Source: a bacterium (GTDB taxonomy: Bacteria > JACRDZ01 > JAQUKH01). From it: a DNA stretch of 48,236 nt. Position 1 is the stretch's first letter. Every line of letters starts with the position of its first letter. Positions 6,601-40,472 of this stretch are shown piece after piece. Made by a program: the position numbers and the translations under genes. The stretch covers positions 1-48,236 of the forward strand of contig JBFMCF010000124.1 in the NCBI GenBank assembly GCA_040754625.1, read 5' to 3'. Below the pieces are notes generated by a model that made no database searches, was not told the origin of the DNA, and was given only the letters and a program-made list of their open reading frames with translations.

Positions 6601-8641
6601 TTCGTCAACAGGATGGAAATATAACACTGTCCCGAATGAAAAGAAGGCGTATTCGCCGCATGGGAACCCTGCGGCAAACCAGCCTAATGGAAATACTTCA
6701 GATAAAGCTGTGCCGTGTTTTGGATGCCATAACTCACATGGCTCAAGTTTGCCGGCTTTAATTAAGACAACAGATAATTATTTACCATCAAGTATTGAAG
6801 ATTTCTGCTGGGACTGTCATTTGAATGATGACGTGAATGCTCCTTATAAGGCATCAGATTATTTAAATGATGCGGATAATAATATAGTGAGAGATTATAC
6901 CGGCGATGACAGGTGGGGTAAAAATGACGGGACAGGTTTTAAAGGTGACTGGATGGGAACATTTACTTACAAAAACGGAAGGTTTGTGAGCAGTCATTTT
7001 TATCCGAGCAAAACACATGACTCAACAGGGATATGGCAGAGAAATCCCATCAATTGCACGGACTGCCATGATCCCCACGGTGTTAATTCGAGCCTTACAA
7101 ACGCGCAGTATATGGTTCCTATTTTGAAAGGGACGTGGCTGATATCCCCGTATAAAGAAGACAGGGCGCCGATGGCAAGTTTCGAGAGCCAGATGAATGA
7201 TCCTTATTTTTCAGGCGGAGGAGAACCGGTACCAAGCGGAGCGCCTCAGGGCGGTAAAAAACCGCGCGCGAATCCCGATCTGGATTTTAACAACCCGCCC
7301 AATCCCGGCGGGGGGTATCCCAATAAGACCGGCGGGCAGGGGCATGAAGGGTATTTTATTGACGCAAATACATTTGGAGCAATTAATAAATATACAAGCA
7401 CATGGATTGGTGCCAGGGCATGGGACAACGGGAAAATAATCACATCCAACAGGATAACCGAAGATGAAACCAAATTTGCGGGTCTGTGTTTAAAATGCCA
7501 TAATAAAACGGCGTTAAAGACAATCTGGGGCGGGCACGGTGTTGTCAAAGGCTGGGGAGGCGCAAGCAAAGACATATTTACAAGCAACATGGCGAGAGGT
7601 CAAGAAAAAGCTAAACCCGGCGCTGGTGTCCATAATATGGGGCAGTATAGCGATGGAGACGGTAATTATGCCCGCGGATACCGCTGGGATGTTGACCCGC
7701 GCTCCAATTATCAGCAAAAATCAGGGTATATCCAGACCGATTATCACCAGTTTGTCTGTTCGAAATGTCATTCACCTCACGCGTCGAGATTACCAAGACT
7801 GATGATAACAAATTGTATTGACACAAAAGGAAACCATACCGATTATCCTTATGAGCTGAACGATTTGGCGACTAATTGTCATGATACAAATGACGGCGCG
7901 GGATGGAATAACAAAACTCCATGGATTGAACCGACGGACCCTGTTACAACAGCAACAGTTGATACCGCTCAAATTGTGCCGAGTTCATCAACTGTTTTGA
8001 CCGGAGAAAGCAAGACATTGACTTTCATGGCGAAAAATAACAAGACTTACACATTGAAATATTTCACTGCGGAGTTTTCTTACAATTATTCAGTTCTGGA
8101 TATTTCGAATTTGAACTGTACGCCGCCGGCAAGAATAGCTTCCATAGATGCTAACAACAGGACAATTACTCTGAGATGGGAGAATATTAACCCGAGGATT
8201 GTGATGATGGCGACATTTGACTGCAAGAGCGATTATACAGGAAATTACGAGATAACAAAAAGCAATATAGAATATAAAGATGAAAACGACAATGTATACT
8301 ACGGCACCTGCAATAATGCCGTAATTAATGTAGTAGATACTATACCGGATACTCAGTCGCCAAGCGTACCTGCTAATTTAAGATATACGAGCAAAGGCCG
8401 GAATTATATTAGTCTCGCGTGGAATGCCTCTACAGATAACGTGGGTGTAACAGGTTATAATATTTACAGAAAAAAAGGGTCATACGGCACATGGTCAAAA
8501 GTTGGGACTTCACAGGTTCTTTCATATAATGACACAGGGTTAAGCAGCAGTACTACTTATTATTACAAAGTATCGGCATATGATGCTGCTGGCAATGAAT
8601 CAGCACAGAGCAGCCAGATTTCAGTGACAACTTCAAAATAG
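3629..8641 (+). CDS. Giant multihaem c-type cytochrome with YVTN beta-propeller and fibronectin III domain
   Basis: A 1670-residue secreted protein with a signal peptide (hydrophobic residues 8-23, likely cleavage after SYAQ). I count 25 CxxCH haem-attachment motifs and one CxxxxCH (CANSLCH), 26 potential c-type haems. Four CxxCH and the CxxxxCH lie before residue 170. Residues of about 180-485 form a YVTN/NHL-type beta-propeller (IAVNNNTNRVYITNY and similar blades) with no haem motifs. The remaining haems lie between about 490 and 1380, including three near-identical ~94-residue repeats. A beta-rich region follows, then a fibronectin type III domain (about 1577-1670). The likely place is periplasm or cell surface, in electron transfer; the fused adhesion-like modules suggest surface exposure. 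The electron donor and acceptor are unknown. Confidence 0.93.
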   Translation: MKNFSTKILLIILALAIIFQFKNLSYAQNIPACSSCHNVPGGQFSVAPVDLNNCNICHANLIAGTCDSGTVSTPYGNYKSSPPDSNGNVLHSEHAGINNPSADPSCQNCHIQTDCNTCHTTVNHNAHFSTDPSYLPRNLTVANGTSVYNKDFNCANSLCHNTIANSVANTSRVLAIDSQTYGSISIDAGDSPKGIAVNNNTNRVYITNYNSNTVTVIDSDTSSISFNQAIGTISVGNNPYDIAVNVNTNIIYVTNTSDNTVSIIDGSSNLVIAAINVGLYPRDIEVNSATNEVYVANYGGGYISVINPDMGNQVSNIFVTGIKPQGMYVDSVSNKIYLGVMETNPDPQVKVYNILVIDGGTKSVTGNIANTGISNDIVLNAPANRIYSASDDKIVVIDSNSLGIMQNININNSVITSVAIYPEAGRLYAAVKNSDNSETLYVLNSINDSYDIINTIQLVKNTQKVRVNNNNGYIYISGGLSTIVPETNPSCFNCHTDVSKHSPSYHDPNPRQTENAVCNLCHNQTNLIDIHSAYNWSCVSCHVGMGPNYGQTALTVINVYKTISNPTYADKAGCQDCHPNVTGTKGEPISLQNSNHITLHDPNPRQTENAVCNLCHSQANLSAVHTAVSWDCLACHNGTGPKYGTTAVSVINAYALSGKTYADKAGCQDCHPTVTGTKGNPVSLDNASHYALHDPNPRQTENTICNLCHTGTNLAIEHKNNNWNCDACHLGTGPNSGAAAQTYIAFYMSLPDTAKTYDAKAGCQDCHSTVTGVKGNSASLSNSTHVTLHIPNPATSTPCNTCHNTALTLPELHKNIADGCLGCHSDTAWTEAKQAIAKYHANPIPENRAGCTDCHGQVSHTCVTCHEEQRNARRPVTPEFGLNSHHVAGVVSPEDCMSCHNTDNHGSGIVYLKNIDGEGTIAFDPNDADSLNPFCLGCHDADSKNSVPFTDGKKPISSGRNWDSTDIETKYSNTGTADSNKYPPTQTPPGHSSTGWKYNTVPNEKKAYSPHGNPAANQPNGNTSDKAVPCFGCHNSHGSSLPALIKTTDNYLPSSIEDFCWDCHLNDDVNAPYKASDYLNDADNNIVRDYTGDDRWGKNDGTGFKGDWMGTFTYKNGRFVSSHFYPSKTHDSTGIWQRNPINCTDCHDPHGVNSSLTNAQYMVPILKGTWLISPYKEDRAPMASFESQMNDPYFSGGGEPVPSGAPQGGKKPRANPDLDFNNPPNPGGGYPNKTGGQGHEGYFIDANTFGAINKYTSTWIGARAWDNGKIITSNRITEDETKFAGLCLKCHNKTALKTIWGGHGVVKGWGGASKDIFTSNMARGQEKAKPGAGVHNMGQYSDGDGNYARGYRWDVDPRSNYQQKSGYIQTDYHQFVCSKCHSPHASRLPRLMITNCIDTKGNHTDYPYELNDLATNCHDTNDGAGWNNKTPWIEPTDPVTTATVDTAQIVPSSSTVLTGESKTLTFMAKNNKTYTLKYFTAEFSYNYSVLDISNLNCTPPARIASIDANNRTITLRWENINPRIVMMATFDCKSDYTGNYEITKSNIEYKDENDNVYYGTCNNAVINVVDTIPDTQSPSVPANLRYTSKGRNYISLAWNASTDNVGVTGYNIYRKKGSYGTWSKVGTSQVLSYNDTGLSSSTTYYYKVSAYDAAGNESAQSSQISVTTSK
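5141..6010 (+). repeat. Tandem ~280-bp coding repeats inside the multihaem gene
   Basis: Three consecutive units begin near 5143, 5425 and 5703, each encoding HDPNPRQTEN, then CNLCH, then WxCxxCH and finally KAGCQDCH. A fourth, decayed start (HIPNPATSTPCNTCH) follows near 5993. Each full unit carries three haem motifs in about 94 residues, so the haem chain has grown by tandem duplication. Confidence 0.9.
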
Positions 8642-9780: not shown

Positions 9781-12700
9781 ATGGTTCATTCGCATTTTGT
9801 TCATCTTCATGTTCATACAGAATACAGCCTCCTGGACGGCGCGTGCCGCATTGACGATCTGATAAAACTTGCCAAAAAATATCATATGCCCGCCCTTGCC
9901 ATAACCGACCACGGTAATATGTTTGGTGCGATAGAATTTTATGAAAAGGCAATGAAGGAGGGTATAAAACCGGTCATCGGGTGCGAGGTATATATTGCGC
10001 CCAACAGCCGCTTTGAAAAAGAATCCAGGGGAATTTCTGACGCATCATACCACCTTGTTCTCCTCGCAAAGGACAAGACAGGCTACAAAAATTTAATGGA
10101 ACTTGTAAGCAAAGGGTATCTTGAGGGGTTTTATTACCGGCCGAGAATCGATAAGGAGATTTTAAGGGAGTTTAGCCGCGGCCTTATTTGCTTGAGCAGC
10201 TGCCTGAAAGGAGAAATCGCAAACTTGATTCTTTCAGGGAGATTGGATGACGCAAAAAAAACCGCGAATTTTTATAAGGACATTTTTCCGCCAGGGGATT
10301 TTTTCCTGGAAATTCAAAATAACGGTTTAAAAGAACAGTCGGCTGTTTCTGAAAGTTTGATTATGTTAAGTAAAGAACTTGAAATTCCCCTGGTTGCCAC
10401 GAGTGACTGCCATTATCTTCAAAAAGAAGATGCGAAGGCACATGACATGCTCCTTTGCATCCAGACAGGTACCACCCGCAGTGACCCTAAGAGAATGCGG
10501 TTTTCTTCTGAAGAATTTTATTTCCGCTCTCCAGATGAAATGAATGGACTTTTTAAAGATATTCCTGAGGCAATTTATAATACTATTGATATTGCTGAAC
10601 GGTGCAACCTTGAATTATTTTTTGATCAAATTTATCTGCCTCACTTTGAAGTCCCGCGCAATGATACTCCTCTTAATTATCTTGAACGGCTTTGCAGGGA
10701 AGGTTTGAAAAAACGCTATGGTGAAATTACTCCTGAGATTGAAAACAGGTTGAATTATGAGTTGAAAGTTATCAATAAAATGGGTTACCCGAGTTATTTT
10801 TTGATTGTCTGGGATTTTATACGATATGCAAAAGAACATGATATCCCTGTAGGGCCCGGCAGGGGGTCTGCTTCAGGGAGTATTGTGTCTTATGCGCTGG
10901 GAATAACCAATCTTGACCCGATAAAATACGGGTTGATATTTGAAAGGTTCTTGAACCCGGAAAGGGTGAGCCTTCCTGATATAGACATTGATTTTTGTTA
11001 TGAAAGAAGGGCTGAAGTAATTGATTATGTAACAAAAAAATACGGCGTGTCGAATGTGGCCCAGATTATCACATTCGGGACCATGGCCGCGCGGGGTGTT
11101 ATTCGCGACGTGGGAAGGGTTTTGGATATGTCTTACGCGGAGGTTGACAGGATTGCGAAATTAATACCTTTTGAACCTGACATAACGCTCGATAAGGCGC
11201 TTAATTCGGAAGAGGAGCTTTCAAGGCTTATTAATACAAGGGAGGATGTTAAGGAGTTGTTCGATATTGCAAAAAGGCTTGAAGGTCTCACACGCCACGC
11301 TTCGATGCACGCGGCAGGTGTTGTTATTTCTAAAGATAATCTTACGAATTACGTCCCTCTTTTCCGCGGCGCGAACAATGAAGTGATTACACAATATGAC
11401 ATGAATTCGATTGACAGGATAGGACTTTTAAAGATTGATTTCCTGGGATTGCGCACTTTGACGGTTATTTTTGATACAATTCAGATAATAAAAAGGACCA
11501 AAAATATCAATGTGAATCCCGACGAACTTGTGATGGATGACCCGGCAACTTATAAGGTTTTAATCAATGGGAATTCAATCGGAATATTTCAGCTTGAAAG
11601 CAGGGGAATGAGGGATTTACTCAGGAAATTAAAACCGGGGACTTTTGAGGATATAATCGCCCTTATCGCTTTATACCGCCCCGGTCCCCTGGGAAGCAAC
11701 ATGGTCGATGATTTTATTAAATGCAAGCATGGTTTGATGAAGATAAAATATCTTCATCCAAAACTTGAAGATATCCTGCAAACTACCTATGGAATAATAC
11801 TTTACCAGGAACAGGTTATGAAGATAGCTGAGGCCGTGGGTAATTTTACAATGGGGCAGGCTGACATTTTACGAAAGGCAATGGGGAAAAAGATCCCGGA
11901 GGTCATGGATCGCCAGAGAAAGACTTTTGTTGAAGGCGCGAAAAAAAACGGGATCGATCCCAAAATTTCCAATGAGATATTTGACCTGATGGCGAAATTC
12001 GCGGGTTACGGTTTTAACAAGTCTCATAGTGCCGCTTACGCGATGGTGGCATACCAGACAGCTTATCTTAAAACACATTTTCCGACAGAGTTTATGGCCG
12101 CGCTTCTGACGTCTGAAATGGGTGATAATAAAAAAATTGTTTTATATGTTGAGGAATGCCGCAGGATGAACATTGATGTACTGCCACCCGATATTAATGA
12201 AAGTTTTGCAAAATTTACCGTGGTTAAAGAAAGGGTGATACGTTTTGGGCTTAACGCGGTAAAAAACGTCGGCGAGGCTGCAATTGAATCTATAATTTCA
12301 GGGAGAAAACAGCTTAAAAAATACAAAACACTTTTGGAATTTTGCAAGACCGTGGATTTAAGGGCTGTAAACCGGCGTGTAATCGAAAGTTTAATTAAAT
12401 GCGGGGCGTTTGATTCGTTGGGAATTTACCGCTCCAGGCTCCTTGCGACCCTGGATGAAACAATGGAAGTCGCCTCGGGGATTCAAAAGGATAAACAATC
12501 AGGCCAGTTTTCTTTGTTTGGGGCCGAGGAAAATGGTGGCCGGGAAATCAAAATACCTGATATTGAGGAATGGCCGGAAAGCCAGCTTTTAAACATGGAG
12601 AAGGAGATGCTTGGTTTATATATTTCAGGGCACCCGTTAGACCATTATAAAGAAGAAGTAAAACAATGGACAAATTGCAATACGACGGATTTGATAAATA

Positions 12701-25728: not shown

Positions 25729-25765
25729 TTTATTAAAATACAAAGAGGTATTAAAAGACATAGAT

Positions 25766-25807
25766 GTCTTCCAGCGGGTTTTTTGCCTGCGGGAAGACTT
25801 TTTTTTT
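25766..25807 (+). terminator. First attenuator of leader C
   Basis: GTCTTCC (25766-25772) pairs with GGAAGAC (25792-25798); an inner GCGGG/CCTGC stem continues it after one mismatch, with a TTTTTTG loop and nine Ts following. Confidence 0.88.
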
Positions 25808-25815
25808 GGAACTAT

Positions 25816-30255: not shown

Positions 30256-30290
30256 GGTTACCGGAACGGTTAAAATTTTACTTGTATAAT
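30256..30290 (+). promoter_or_regulatory. nif promoter with a GGTTACC element
   Basis: GGTTACC (30256-30262) lies exactly 22 bases before TATAAT (30285-30290), inside the shared context TTACTTGTATAATCAGA. The same motif and spacing occur before the amt cluster (40176-40210). There is no TTGACA-like -35, so an activator or alternative sigma factor is likely. No sigma-54 motif was found in 30235-30524. Confidence 0.65.
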
Positions 30291-30322
30291 CAGAAGCACA
30301 TAGATGTGTAGAAAAATACAAA

Positions 30323-30357
30323 GGCGTCCCGATGAAATATCGGGATGCCTTTTTTTT
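30323..30357 (+). terminator. First attenuator of leader A
   Basis: GGCGTCCCGAT (30323-30333) pairs with ATCGGGATGCC (30339-30349), 11 bp with one wobble and a five-base loop, followed by eight Ts. Confidence 0.88.
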
Positions 30358-30366
30358 AAATGAATT

Positions 30367-30386
30367 ACCCCGATGTTCATCGGGGT
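30367..30386 (+). repeat. CCCCGATG palindromic repeat (family 3)
   Basis: ACCCCGATG TT CATCGGGGT, a perfect hairpin between the two attenuators. Related units lie at 40289-40306 and 40318-40339 in leader B. Confidence 0.8.
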
Positions 30387-30439
30387 TCAATTCGCACTAT
30401 CATCCTGATACATCGGGATGATGTACTCATTGAAGACAG

Positions 30440-30486
30440 GGGTGTCTTTTTTGTTCCATGAAGAGGAAAAAAATGACACCCTTTTT
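30440..30486 (+). terminator. Second attenuator of leader A
   Basis: GGGTGTC (30440-30446) pairs with GACACCC (30475-30481), extended by a T-rich/A-rich stem and TTCC/GGAA around a seven-base loop, then five Ts. It ends 38 bases before the nifH start. Confidence 0.82.
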
Positions 30487-30509: not shown

Positions 30510-31343
<834 letters not shown>

Positions 31344-31781: not shown

Positions 31782-32141
31782 ATGAAAGAAGTTATGGCAA
31801 TTATTCGTCAGGAAAATATTAATAAGACAAAAAATGATCTGGTTAAAGAAGGGTTTCCGAGTTTAACAGCACGGAAAGTTCTGGGCCGGGGGCGGATGAG
31901 CGTGGAATTTGACCTTGCGGAAAATTCAGGAATAAAAGCGGAAGGCCTTTCACGGGGCTCACGCCTTATGCCAAAGAGGATCATTACAATTATAGTGAAG
32001 GATGAAGAAGTAGATAAAGTTGTTGGCGCGATTATCAGGTCAAACAGTAAAGGTAACAAGGGAGACGGAAAAATATTTGTATTGCCGGTTACTGAGGTAT
32101 ACCGAGTGCGGGATAATAAAAGAGATAATGAAACGCTATGA
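31782..32141 (+). CDS. nifI2: PII-like nitrogenase regulator NifI2
   Basis: A 119-residue GlnB-family protein (KEVMAIIRQENINKTKNDL; LGRGRMSVEF; longer T-loop region ending LMPKRIITIIV; GDGKIFVLPVTEVYRVR). The longer T-loop with RGSRLMPKR is typical of NifI2, the subunit that contacts dinitrogenase. It sits 43 bases after nifI1 and 16 bases before nifD. Together they imply fast post-translational shut-off of nitrogenase by ammonium. Confidence 0.95.
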   Translation: MKEVMAIIRQENINKTKNDLVKEGFPSLTARKVLGRGRMSVEFDLAENSGIKAEGLSRGSRLMPKRIITIIVKDEEVDKVVGAIIRSNSKGNKGDGKIFVLPVTEVYRVRDNKRDNETL

Positions 32142-32157
32142 AAATGAGGGGGATAAT

Positions 32158-33795
32158 ATGTCTGATAAAGAAAAATTAAAAAATGCAAGGATAAACGCGG
32201 GGAAGAAAGCAGTGAAAGAAATATTAAGTGAGTACCCGGCAAAAACCGCCAAGAACAGGGACGAACATATTATTGTTAAGGAAATTAAAAAAGGCGAGTG
32301 CCAGAAGATAAAAGCCAATACCAGGACGATTCCCGGGATCATCACGAACAGGGGATGCTGTTTTGCCGGTTGCAAAGGCGTTGTATTCGGCCCTATTAAG
32401 GACATGGTGCATATTGTGCACGGCCCAATCGGGTGTTCTTATTATACCTGGGGCACGCGCAGAAATAAAGCAAGGTCTGATGACGCGAAACAAATATATT
32501 CGGCGTACGCGTTTTCAACGGATATGCAGGAAAGCGATATCGTATTCGGCGGCGAGAAAAAACTTGAACAGGCGGTTAGGGAGGCATTTGAAATATTCAA
32601 GCCTGCGGCAATTTCAATACATGCTACCTGTCCTGTGGGCCTGATAGGTGATGACGTCCAGGCGGTCGTGCGCCGCATGCAGGCGGAGCTTGGTGTAATG
32701 GTCCTTGCTTTAAATTGCGAAGGTTATAAAGGAGTAAGCCAGTCGGCCGGGCATCATATCGCGAATAACAGGCTCTTTAAAGATGTAATAGGCCTGAAGG
32801 ACAAAAAATACAAAAATTCTTTTACTGTAAATGTTCTGGGAGAATATAACATCGGAGGTGACGGCTGGGAGGTCCACAGGATCTTGAACGAGATCGGTTA
32901 TGAAGTAATCTCGACTCTTACCGGTGATGCCGGGATCGAGGATATTACCCTGGCGCATAACGCCAAATTAAATGTCGTGCAATGCCACCGGTCTATCAAT
33001 TATATGGCAGAGATGATGGAAAAGAAATTCAGTATTCCCTGGATAAAGGTAAACTTTGTCGGTGTGAACAGCATCTGTGAGACCCTTAGGAACATCGCGA
33101 AGTTTTTCGGTGATAAAGAGTTAATAAAAAGAACGGAAGCATTTATTAAAAAAGAAAGAGAACAGATCGATCCTGTAATAAAAGAATATAGAAAGGGAAT
33201 TCAGGGGCGGACGGCAATGCTTTTTGTGGGCGGGTCGCGCAGCCACCATTATCAGGATATTTTCAGCGAATTGGGTGTAGCTACGGTTATGGCCGGGTAT
33301 GAATTCGCTCACAGGGATGATTACGAAGGAAGAAAAGTAATTCCGGACATAAAACCTGACGCGGACAGCAAGAATATCGAAGAGTTAACTGTCGGGCCAG
33401 ATGAAACCAGATATTATGAGCCTGATAAAGATAAAATAAAAAAACTCATTGCTGAAGGTGTGCCGGTTAATGAGTATGAAGGTATGTACGCGGCATCTAT
33501 GGAAGGCGCTTTGATAATTGACGACCTTAACCATTATGAAACTGAAAAACTAATTGAAATATTAAAACCGGATATTTTTTGTTCAGGGGTTAAAGATAAA
33601 TACGCCATTCAGAAAATGGGTATACCTTCAAAACAGCTGCACTCATATGATTATTCAGGGCCCTATGCCGGATTTAAAGGCGCTGTTATTTTCGCGAGGG
33701 ATATTTATATGACGTTTAACAGCCCGGCATGGCAGTATATCAGGCCGCCGTGGGAAATAGAACCGGAAATGACAGGTGAATTAAATAAAAGATAA
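32158..33795 (+). CDS. nifD: Nitrogenase molybdenum-iron protein alpha chain
   Basis: A 545-residue NifD, the catalytic alpha subunit. P-cluster cysteines are visible at C72 (FAGCKG), C93 (HGPIGCSYYTW) and C158 (HATCPVGLIGDD); FeMo-cofactor ligands are the cysteine of NVVQCHRSINYM and the histidine of QLHSYDYSGPY. An insertion of roughly 50 residues near VGPDETRYYEPDKDKIKK matches the clostridial/methanogen-type NifD and explains the length. The ATG at 32158 has GAGGGGG upstream. No anfG or vnfG is present, so this is the Mo type by context. Confidence 0.96.
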   Translation: MSDKEKLKNARINAGKKAVKEILSEYPAKTAKNRDEHIIVKEIKKGECQKIKANTRTIPGIITNRGCCFAGCKGVVFGPIKDMVHIVHGPIGCSYYTWGTRRNKARSDDAKQIYSAYAFSTDMQESDIVFGGEKKLEQAVREAFEIFKPAAISIHATCPVGLIGDDVQAVVRRMQAELGVMVLALNCEGYKGVSQSAGHHIANNRLFKDVIGLKDKKYKNSFTVNVLGEYNIGGDGWEVHRILNEIGYEVISTLTGDAGIEDITLAHNAKLNVVQCHRSINYMAEMMEKKFSIPWIKVNFVGVNSICETLRNIAKFFGDKELIKRTEAFIKKEREQIDPVIKEYRKGIQGRTAMLFVGGSRSHHYQDIFSELGVATVMAGYEFAHRDDYEGRKVIPDIKPDADSKNIEELTVGPDETRYYEPDKDKIKKLIAEGVPVNEYEGMYAASMEGALIIDDLNHYETEKLIEILKPDIFCSGVKDKYAIQKMGIPSKQLHSYDYSGPYAGFKGAVIFARDIYMTFNSPAWQYIRPPWEIEPEMTGELNKR

Positions 33796-40175: not shown

Positions 40176-40210
40176 GGTTACCAAAAACAAAAGTTTATTA
40201 CTTGTATAAT
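40176..40210 (+). promoter_or_regulatory. Ammonium-operon promoter with a GGTTACC element
   Basis: GGTTACC (40176-40182), 22 bases, TATAAT (40205-40210) in the context TTACTTGTATAATCAGA, identical in motif and spacing to the nif promoter at 30256-30290. Confidence 0.65.
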
Positions 40211-40241
40211 CAGATACACATTGAAGTGTAAAAATAACAAA

Positions 40242-40278
40242 GGCGTTCGTCATGGATAATGGCGGATGCTTTTTTTTT
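40242..40278 (+). terminator. First attenuator of leader B
   Basis: GGCGTTCGTCAT (40242-40253) pairs with ATGGCGGATGCT (40259-40270) with several wobbles and a five-base loop, then eight more Ts. Confidence 0.82.
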
Positions 40279-40288
40279 AATGAAGACA

Positions 40289-40339
40289 CCCCGATATTTT
40301 TCGGGGTAGTCTGAATTAACCCCGATGTACATCGGGGTT
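40289..40339 (+). repeat. Two CCCCGATG-type palindromic repeats (family 3) in leader B
   Basis: CCCCGA...TCGGGG at 40289-40306 and the perfect palindrome AACCCCGATGTACATCGGGGTT at 40318-40339 (quoted as two halves: AACCCCGATGT, ACATCGGGGTT) separate the two attenuators, as in leader A. Confidence 0.8.
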
Positions 40340-40403
40340 TGGTTCGTACTATTACTTCTGTTCACACTTCGTGTTTCATAAGTAATGTACTCATCAAAGA
40401 CAC

Positions 40404-40446
40404 AGGCGTCTTTTAATCCAAAAACGGATATAAAGGCGCCTTTTTT
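40404..40446 (+). terminator. Second attenuator of leader B
   Basis: AGGCGTCTTT (40404-40413) pairs with AAAGGCGCCT (40432-40441) over 10 bp with one wobble, an inner ATCC/GGAT stem, then Ts to 40446. Confidence 0.85.
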
Positions 40447-40472
40447 ATTGGGCGTCAAAAAAAGGAGAACAC

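Follow-up and report, generated by a model that had tools for sequence, protein, structure and literature searches.

A hexaloop leader RNA before the nif operon and a predicted ANTAR-type nitrogen regulon in a sparsely sampled bacterial phylum

The nif operon of the window (the whole 48,236-nt stretch of DNA analysed here) lies behind two intrinsic terminators, and the question is how RNA polymerase passes them. A preliminary description of the sequence proposed antitermination by an ANTAR-domain protein that binds hairpins with six-base loops. Comparison of leader sequences and genomes, presented below, indicates that the nif operon is very probably under ANTAR-type transcription attenuation.

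The leaders and their promoter element

The elements before nifH are as follows, all on the plus strand.

30256-30290, plus strand: conserved promoter-like element GGTTACC-N16-TTACTTGTAT(AAT), before the nifH leader
30296-30309, plus strand: P1 hexaloop hairpin, GCAC-ATAGAT-GTGT
30318-30327, plus strand: P2 hexaloop hairpin, AC-AAAGGC-GT, its loop and 3′ arm within terminator 1
30320-30357, plus strand: intrinsic terminator 1, beginning exactly at the P2 loop (hairpin, -22.9 kcal/mol)
30433-30448, plus strand: single hexaloop hairpin, AAGAC-AGGGGT-GTCTT, five Watson-Crick pairs, about 75 nt after terminator 1
30438-30486, plus strand: intrinsic terminator 2, containing the loop and 3′ arm of the AGGGGT hairpin
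30525-31343, plus strand: nifH, first gene of the controlled operon nifH-I1-I2-D-K-E-N-B, which extends to about 39304

Direct reading bears out the preliminary description in that two hairpins with A at loop position 1 and G at position 4 (A1/G4) run into a terminator; it also confirms, together with terminator prediction, a third such hexaloop overlapping a second terminator just before nifH. The P1 stem, likewise read directly, has three Watson-Crick pairs and one G-U pair and is compensated across ten leaders; a linker of 8 nt separates it from P2. The 5′ arm of terminator 1 consists of the P2 loop and 3′ arm, thus P2 and the terminator are mutually exclusive, as are the AGGGGT hairpin and terminator 2. 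In fold predictions of the leader in isolation the terminators prevail. A TATAAT sequence at 30285-30290 is situated between the upstream PEP-CTERM gene (end 30234) and P1, and given this motif the 5′ end of the transcript is likely to be just ahead of P1.

Two features of this leader count against the ANTAR reading. P2 has only two pairs, a weakness the preliminary description had itself pointed out, and with a folding energy of +2.2 kcal/mol alone it cannot form by itself; in several paralogous leaders the P2 stem is longer, with 3 to 6 pairs. In addition, no recognisable P1 is present in the module ahead of terminator 2.

The nifH start codon with a ribosome-binding site is the ATG at 30525, directly after terminator 2, and not the in-frame ATG at 30513. 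Further downstream, the nifD frame (32020-33795) exceeds its family profile, with 514 residues matched over 466 positions. An insertion of the kind known from clostridial NifD would fit the extra length, and the true start probably lies downstream of the listed TTG. We take the presence of NifI1 and NifI2 within the operon to suggest an extra, post-translational layer.

The whole arrangement is repeated once more in the window, at 40176-40447, before a porin-like/amtB/glnB/amtB operon.

40176-40210, plus strand: the same promoter-like element, before the amt-operon leader
40215-40230, plus strand: P1, TACAC-ATTGAA-GTGTA
40236-40247, plus strand: P2, AAC-AAAGGC-GTT, with a linker of 5 nt from P1
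40239-40278, plus strand: terminator 1
40396-40413, plus strand: single hexaloop, AAAGAC-ACAGGC-GTCTTT, situated in terminator 2
40402-40447, plus strand: terminator 2, followed by the porin-like ORF (40473), amtB (41209), glnB (42729) and amtB (43429)

Between the nifH and amt-operon leaders all hexaloops keep A1 and G4, the loops of P1 and of the third hairpin differ elsewhere, and the terminator stems are altered on both sides, i.e., are compensated. Between the two terminators there are palindromic CCCCGATG...CATCGGGG repeats (window 30365-30425 and 40285-40380) that resemble a small dispersed repeat; these are also found in intergenic regions of the sister genome, the only other one of the genus (L168 around 7790-7830 and 11000-11060, minus strand).

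A third leader in the window, detected by the hexaloop/terminator scan and by covariance models, precedes a luxR-like ORF at 25814.

25737-25752, plus strand: P1, AATAC-AAAGAG-GTATT
25755-25806, plus strand: P2, AAGAC-ATAGAT-GTCTT (25755-25770), overlapping an intrinsic terminator (25766-25806)

This tandem is very clean (5+5 pairs), and a scan for A1/G4 hexaloops overlapping terminators finds one at its sister-genome counterpart as well. The RNA regulator would thus have a DNA-binding regulator among its targets. Elsewhere in this genome a leader of the same plan is found before the third amtB (G000:C84) and the tandem unit is also ahead of the glutamine synthetase gene (glnA); gltB is preceded by a single hexaloop with terminator, read directly beside a weak match (E 0.4) of model R2 described below. 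In the sister genome the leaders precede amtB, a porin-like/APC-P-II/glnB operon, a glutamine amidotransferase gene and the gene of a type III glutamine synthetase (GS-III). Every leader examined has A1/G4 loops, which are of six bases throughout the genus of the window, and linkers range from about 2 to 17 nt. Membership of this regulon is a lower bound. It should be noted that in one ANTAR-led operon of the sister genome an amino-acid permease and a P-II domain are joined in a single protein (L168:9103-10971, minus strand).

The element GGTTACC-N15/16-TTACTTGTAT precedes many of the leaders, and also an Omnitrophota nifH leader (L082); the glnA leader carries a shorter TTACC form. Exact sites number three in this genome (nifH, the amt operon and the third amtB) and three in the sister genome, with none in two relatives within the phylum and none in reversed controls. 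The motif (G)GTTACC-N-ACTTGTAT is also seen at the sister kdp operon, which has no hexaloops and a c-di-AMP-riboswitch-like leader. Outside the window the sites are at L167:7968, L250:2871, L168:11949, 8050 and 3007 (minus strand), L224:4462 and L082:5789. Sigma-54 elements were also sought. As the preliminary description had noticed, none is evident at nifH: a scan for TGGCAC-N5-TTGC (-24/-12) upstream of the gene returned chance-level degenerate matches only, and a sigma-54 promoter was rejected, there being no recognisable -24/-12 site in the leader. A sigma-54 gene is present in the genome.

Since the promoter motif is conserved before many leaders, initiation at nif may also be regulated. 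It should be considered whether nif is mainly controlled at this level through GGTTACC/ACTTGTAT, by an activator or an alternative sigma factor, with ANTAR attenuation secondary, the RNA providing a fine adjustment. The conservation of the element at many leaders, at the hexaloop-less kdp operon and at the Omnitrophota nifH leader speaks for this explanation, which we regard as unlikely although it is the strongest competitor. However, the luxR-like, gltB and GS-III modules lack the element and have ordinary-looking promoters, thus it is the RNA element that is common to the regulon. Moreover, two serial strong terminators would stop most transcription unless there is read-through.

The single GAF-ANTAR protein

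An ANTAR gene near the nitrogen genes was sought, and exactly one is found in the genome (63.9 bits, against a cut-off of 27.3). A genome devoid of such genes, the case raised beforehand as contrary to the proposal, is thus not what is seen. The gene does not encode the response regulator that had been expected, but a GAF-ANTAR protein of 240 aa; it is directly behind glnA and co-directional with it, starting 1 bp after the glnA end. In the sister genome, too, there is a single ANTAR gene (92% identical). Two more distant members of the phylum have neither the ANTAR gene nor the RNA, and one of these (78% complete) has nifH and porin-amtB genes. Thus in four genomes of the phylum the RNA occurs where the ANTAR gene does and is missing where the gene is missing. 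Counting against the ANTAR reading, the hexaloop/terminator scan shows no such leader at the ANTAR gene's own operon.

The ANTAR domain was aligned to the EutV structure 6WSH, whose numbering is shifted by two from that of PMC8934654, the source for the roles of EutV residues in contacting G4 and the loop. The equivalents of R142, K143, E146, K149, Y164, M172 and R175 are kept; the main G4-contacting residues, Tyr164, Arg142 and Lys149, are among them. Changes at other EutV contacts, E160S, R168Q, N173D and R177S, count against the ANTAR reading; E160 is also a G4 contact, and the last three are peripheral. The GAF part weakly matches the GAF portion of a Nif-specific regulatory protein of known structure (9qq6, E 0.004), and because of this match it is plausible that the domain senses a small nitrogen-status ligand.

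The attenuator could be real and yet respond to a different trans factor, its hairpins being recognised by another RNA-binding protein or by a small ligand. Rfam does not name the leader and ANTAR binding is here predicted from sequence, both of which leave room for such a factor. However, C-closed A1/G4 hexaloops with P2 in the terminator are the described substrate of ANTAR proteins (PMC3369931, PMC8934654), RNA and ANTAR gene go together in the four phylum genomes, and leaders with the motif precede ANTAR genes outside the phylum (see below). A different factor is therefore very improbable.

Covariation, covariance models and chance expectation

Rfam searches at curated and permissive thresholds gave nothing above the cut-offs, a result that cannot tell for or against an ANTAR RNA. 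A strict tandem scan (4+4 pairs) gave one chance-looking match, the threshold being too strict for real leaders. Alignment was done on trimmed cores, because the longer leaders were misaligned by MAFFT. Covariation in the first five leaders alone was no better than in shuffles. Among ten leaders from four genomes, the A1/G4 loops, whose loss from homologous nif leaders was to speak against the proposal, are kept while other positions vary, and the C-G closing pair is found in 10 of 10. The ten-leader alignment was fitted to model R1, trained on five leaders, and leans towards the structure for that reason; in it 97% of cells are paired, three pairs have double changes and 8 cells are changed on both sides, and none of 500 shuffles matches it in percentage paired, double-change cells or covariation score.

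Outside its training set, R1 detects leaders in two genomes that do not belong to the phylum, in both cases directly ahead of GAF-ANTAR genes, and in these leaders P1 has a seven-base loop (AACGTTA and AATGTGA, with A1 and G4, i.e., AxxGxxA; L145:6011-6049 and L146:8014-8060, minus strand). Model R2, built from the ten leaders, was used to search 78 genomes. Matches at E ≤ 0.1 are confined to G000, G001, G030 and G070, all of which have a GAF-ANTAR gene, plus one match in G042. Those new to training precede the glutamine synthetase gene of this genome and the GS-III gene of the sister genome. A held-out model, R3, was made from leaders of three genomes only, the sister genome and the two that do not belong to the phylum. 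R2, whose training included the window, was used to position the R3 alignment, but the window did not enter the R3 parameters. In the whole 2.75-Mb genome the top five R3 matches are, in rank order, the amt-operon, luxR-like, glnA, nifH and amtB3 leaders, with E-values from 0.0002 to 0.014 (nifH, E = 0.009). In 10 of 11 other genomes R3 has no match at E ≤ 2.

Several weak model matches that are inside coding sequence or have no fitting terminator were rejected (G067, G030:C5:5109, G070:C61/C80/C102, G000:C66, C85 and C97, G030:C109, G041:C49:22252).

In the loci analysed, the hexaloop tandem is found upstream of 9 of 294 strong terminators (two of the 9 are duplicate copies), against 0.15 expected by shuffling. 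All but one are leaders described above, and the remaining one is the nifH leader of Desulfoscipio geothermicus. Comparable hexaloop-terminators precede nifH in other phyla: when 80 other nifH leaders were examined, drawn from several phyla, six had an A1/G4 hexaloop of at least four pairs in a terminator, against 0.15 expected. The genomes of two of these six, D. geothermicus and the Omnitrophota member, were checked for ANTAR genes and both are positive; the latter, whose leader has the same promoter motif, encodes a GAF-GAF-ANTAR protein.

Single A1/G4 hexaloops in terminators before nifH are seen in several Bacillota, in a Eubacteriaceae genome, a Clostridia MAG and two Propionispira (L065, L068, L114, L116), 94-135 nt upstream of nifH and without an evident P1.

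That the hairpins are ordinary, with terminator 1 ending the upstream PEP-CTERM gene and the hexaloops arising by chance, is scarcely credible: this gene does end only 86 bp before terminator 1, and a two-pair P2 is weak by itself, but the same block of promoter, loops and terminator is found again where the upstream genes are unrelated, the ten leaders covary, tandem-bearing terminators far exceed their expected number, and the held-out model recovery already contradicts it.

Proposed mechanism and comparison with known systems

The elements and their mutual exclusivity, the conservation and covariation of the leaders, regulon membership, the single ANTAR gene and its co-occurrence with the RNA in the phylum are established from sequence. 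Transcription of the nif operon would begin just before P1 and, unless prevented, would stop ahead of nifH, at terminator 1 or else at terminator 2. In fixed-nitrogen shortage the single GAF-ANTAR protein is thought to turn active. It would then bind the A1/G4 hexaloops on the nascent transcript and keep P2 and the later single hexaloop folded; with the loops and 3′ arms of the held hairpins withheld from the terminators, RNA polymerase would read into nifHI1I2DKENB. This protein would also control the amtB/glnB operon, the third amtB, glutamine synthetase, gltB and the luxR-like gene, together a nitrogen regulon, and in this little-known phylum a single RNA antitermination regulator would thus govern nitrogenase along with the rest of nitrogen assimilation. 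Binding and antitermination in this scheme are inferred, as are the sense in which the switch responds, the ligand of the GAF domain and the way in which single hexaloops act. RNA antitermination, as first proposed, is supported by the leader comparison, the held-out model and the ANTAR gene; its further part, that this operates rather than NifA/sigma-54, is not fully established, in view of the sigma-54 gene and the conserved promoter motif.

A broader reading may be put forward tentatively, namely that one GAF-ANTAR protein replaces NifA/NtrC as master nitrogen regulator, acting both on dual hexaloops and on stand-alone single-hexaloop terminators, with nif and amt gated by the two in series. 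EutV binds single hexaloops but requires a correctly spaced pair for antitermination (PMC8934654), and this counts against the ANTAR reading of the single-hexaloop second module. The single-hexaloop terminators before nifH in Bacillota and Omnitrophota, if true targets, would contradict this rule of both hexaloops. The search model and these natural single-hexaloop modules can be used for testing the minimal needs of ANTAR antitermination.

The leaders resemble those of Enterococcus faecalis eut/EutV and Klebsiella nasF/NasR (PMC3369931, PMC8934654) in their two small A1/G4 hexaloop hairpins with a C-G closing pair, in the overlap of P2 with an intrinsic terminator and in the nitrogen genes downstream. 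They differ in that the regulator is a GAF-ANTAR protein, and not a response regulator or NIT-ANTAR protein, and in the added single-hexaloop/terminator module; seven-base P1 loops in two genomes outside the phylum are a further difference. Linkers in E. faecalis eut are 5-12 nt long; those of nifH (8) and amt (5) are within this range, but some leaders here have 13-17 nt, which counts against the ANTAR reading.

Pelobacter carbinolicus is known to have ANTAR target RNAs in three nitrogenase-related transcription units, and in Desulfotomaculum nitrogen regulons the Amt, P-II, glutamate/glutamine synthesis and nitrogenase genes are together under ANTAR RNAs (PMC3369931). The same gene set is found here, in a different lineage and with a different sensor, and the nif and amt leaders have terminators in tandem.

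As in P. carbinolicus and Geobacter sulfurreducens, nif units carry ANTAR target RNAs, here in another, sparsely sampled phylum. For G. sulfurreducens, GnfK/GnfR and nif units with such RNAs were reportedly described by Ueki and Lovley in 2010. The gnfK/gnfR genes are named as nitrogen-fixation regulators (PMC7962754). Geobacter has a two-component pair, whereas here there is one gene beside glnA and one regulon over nif, amt, glnA and gltB. Thus ANTAR control of nitrogenase is already known, and what is new is the lineage, the unusually complete regulon and some variant features.
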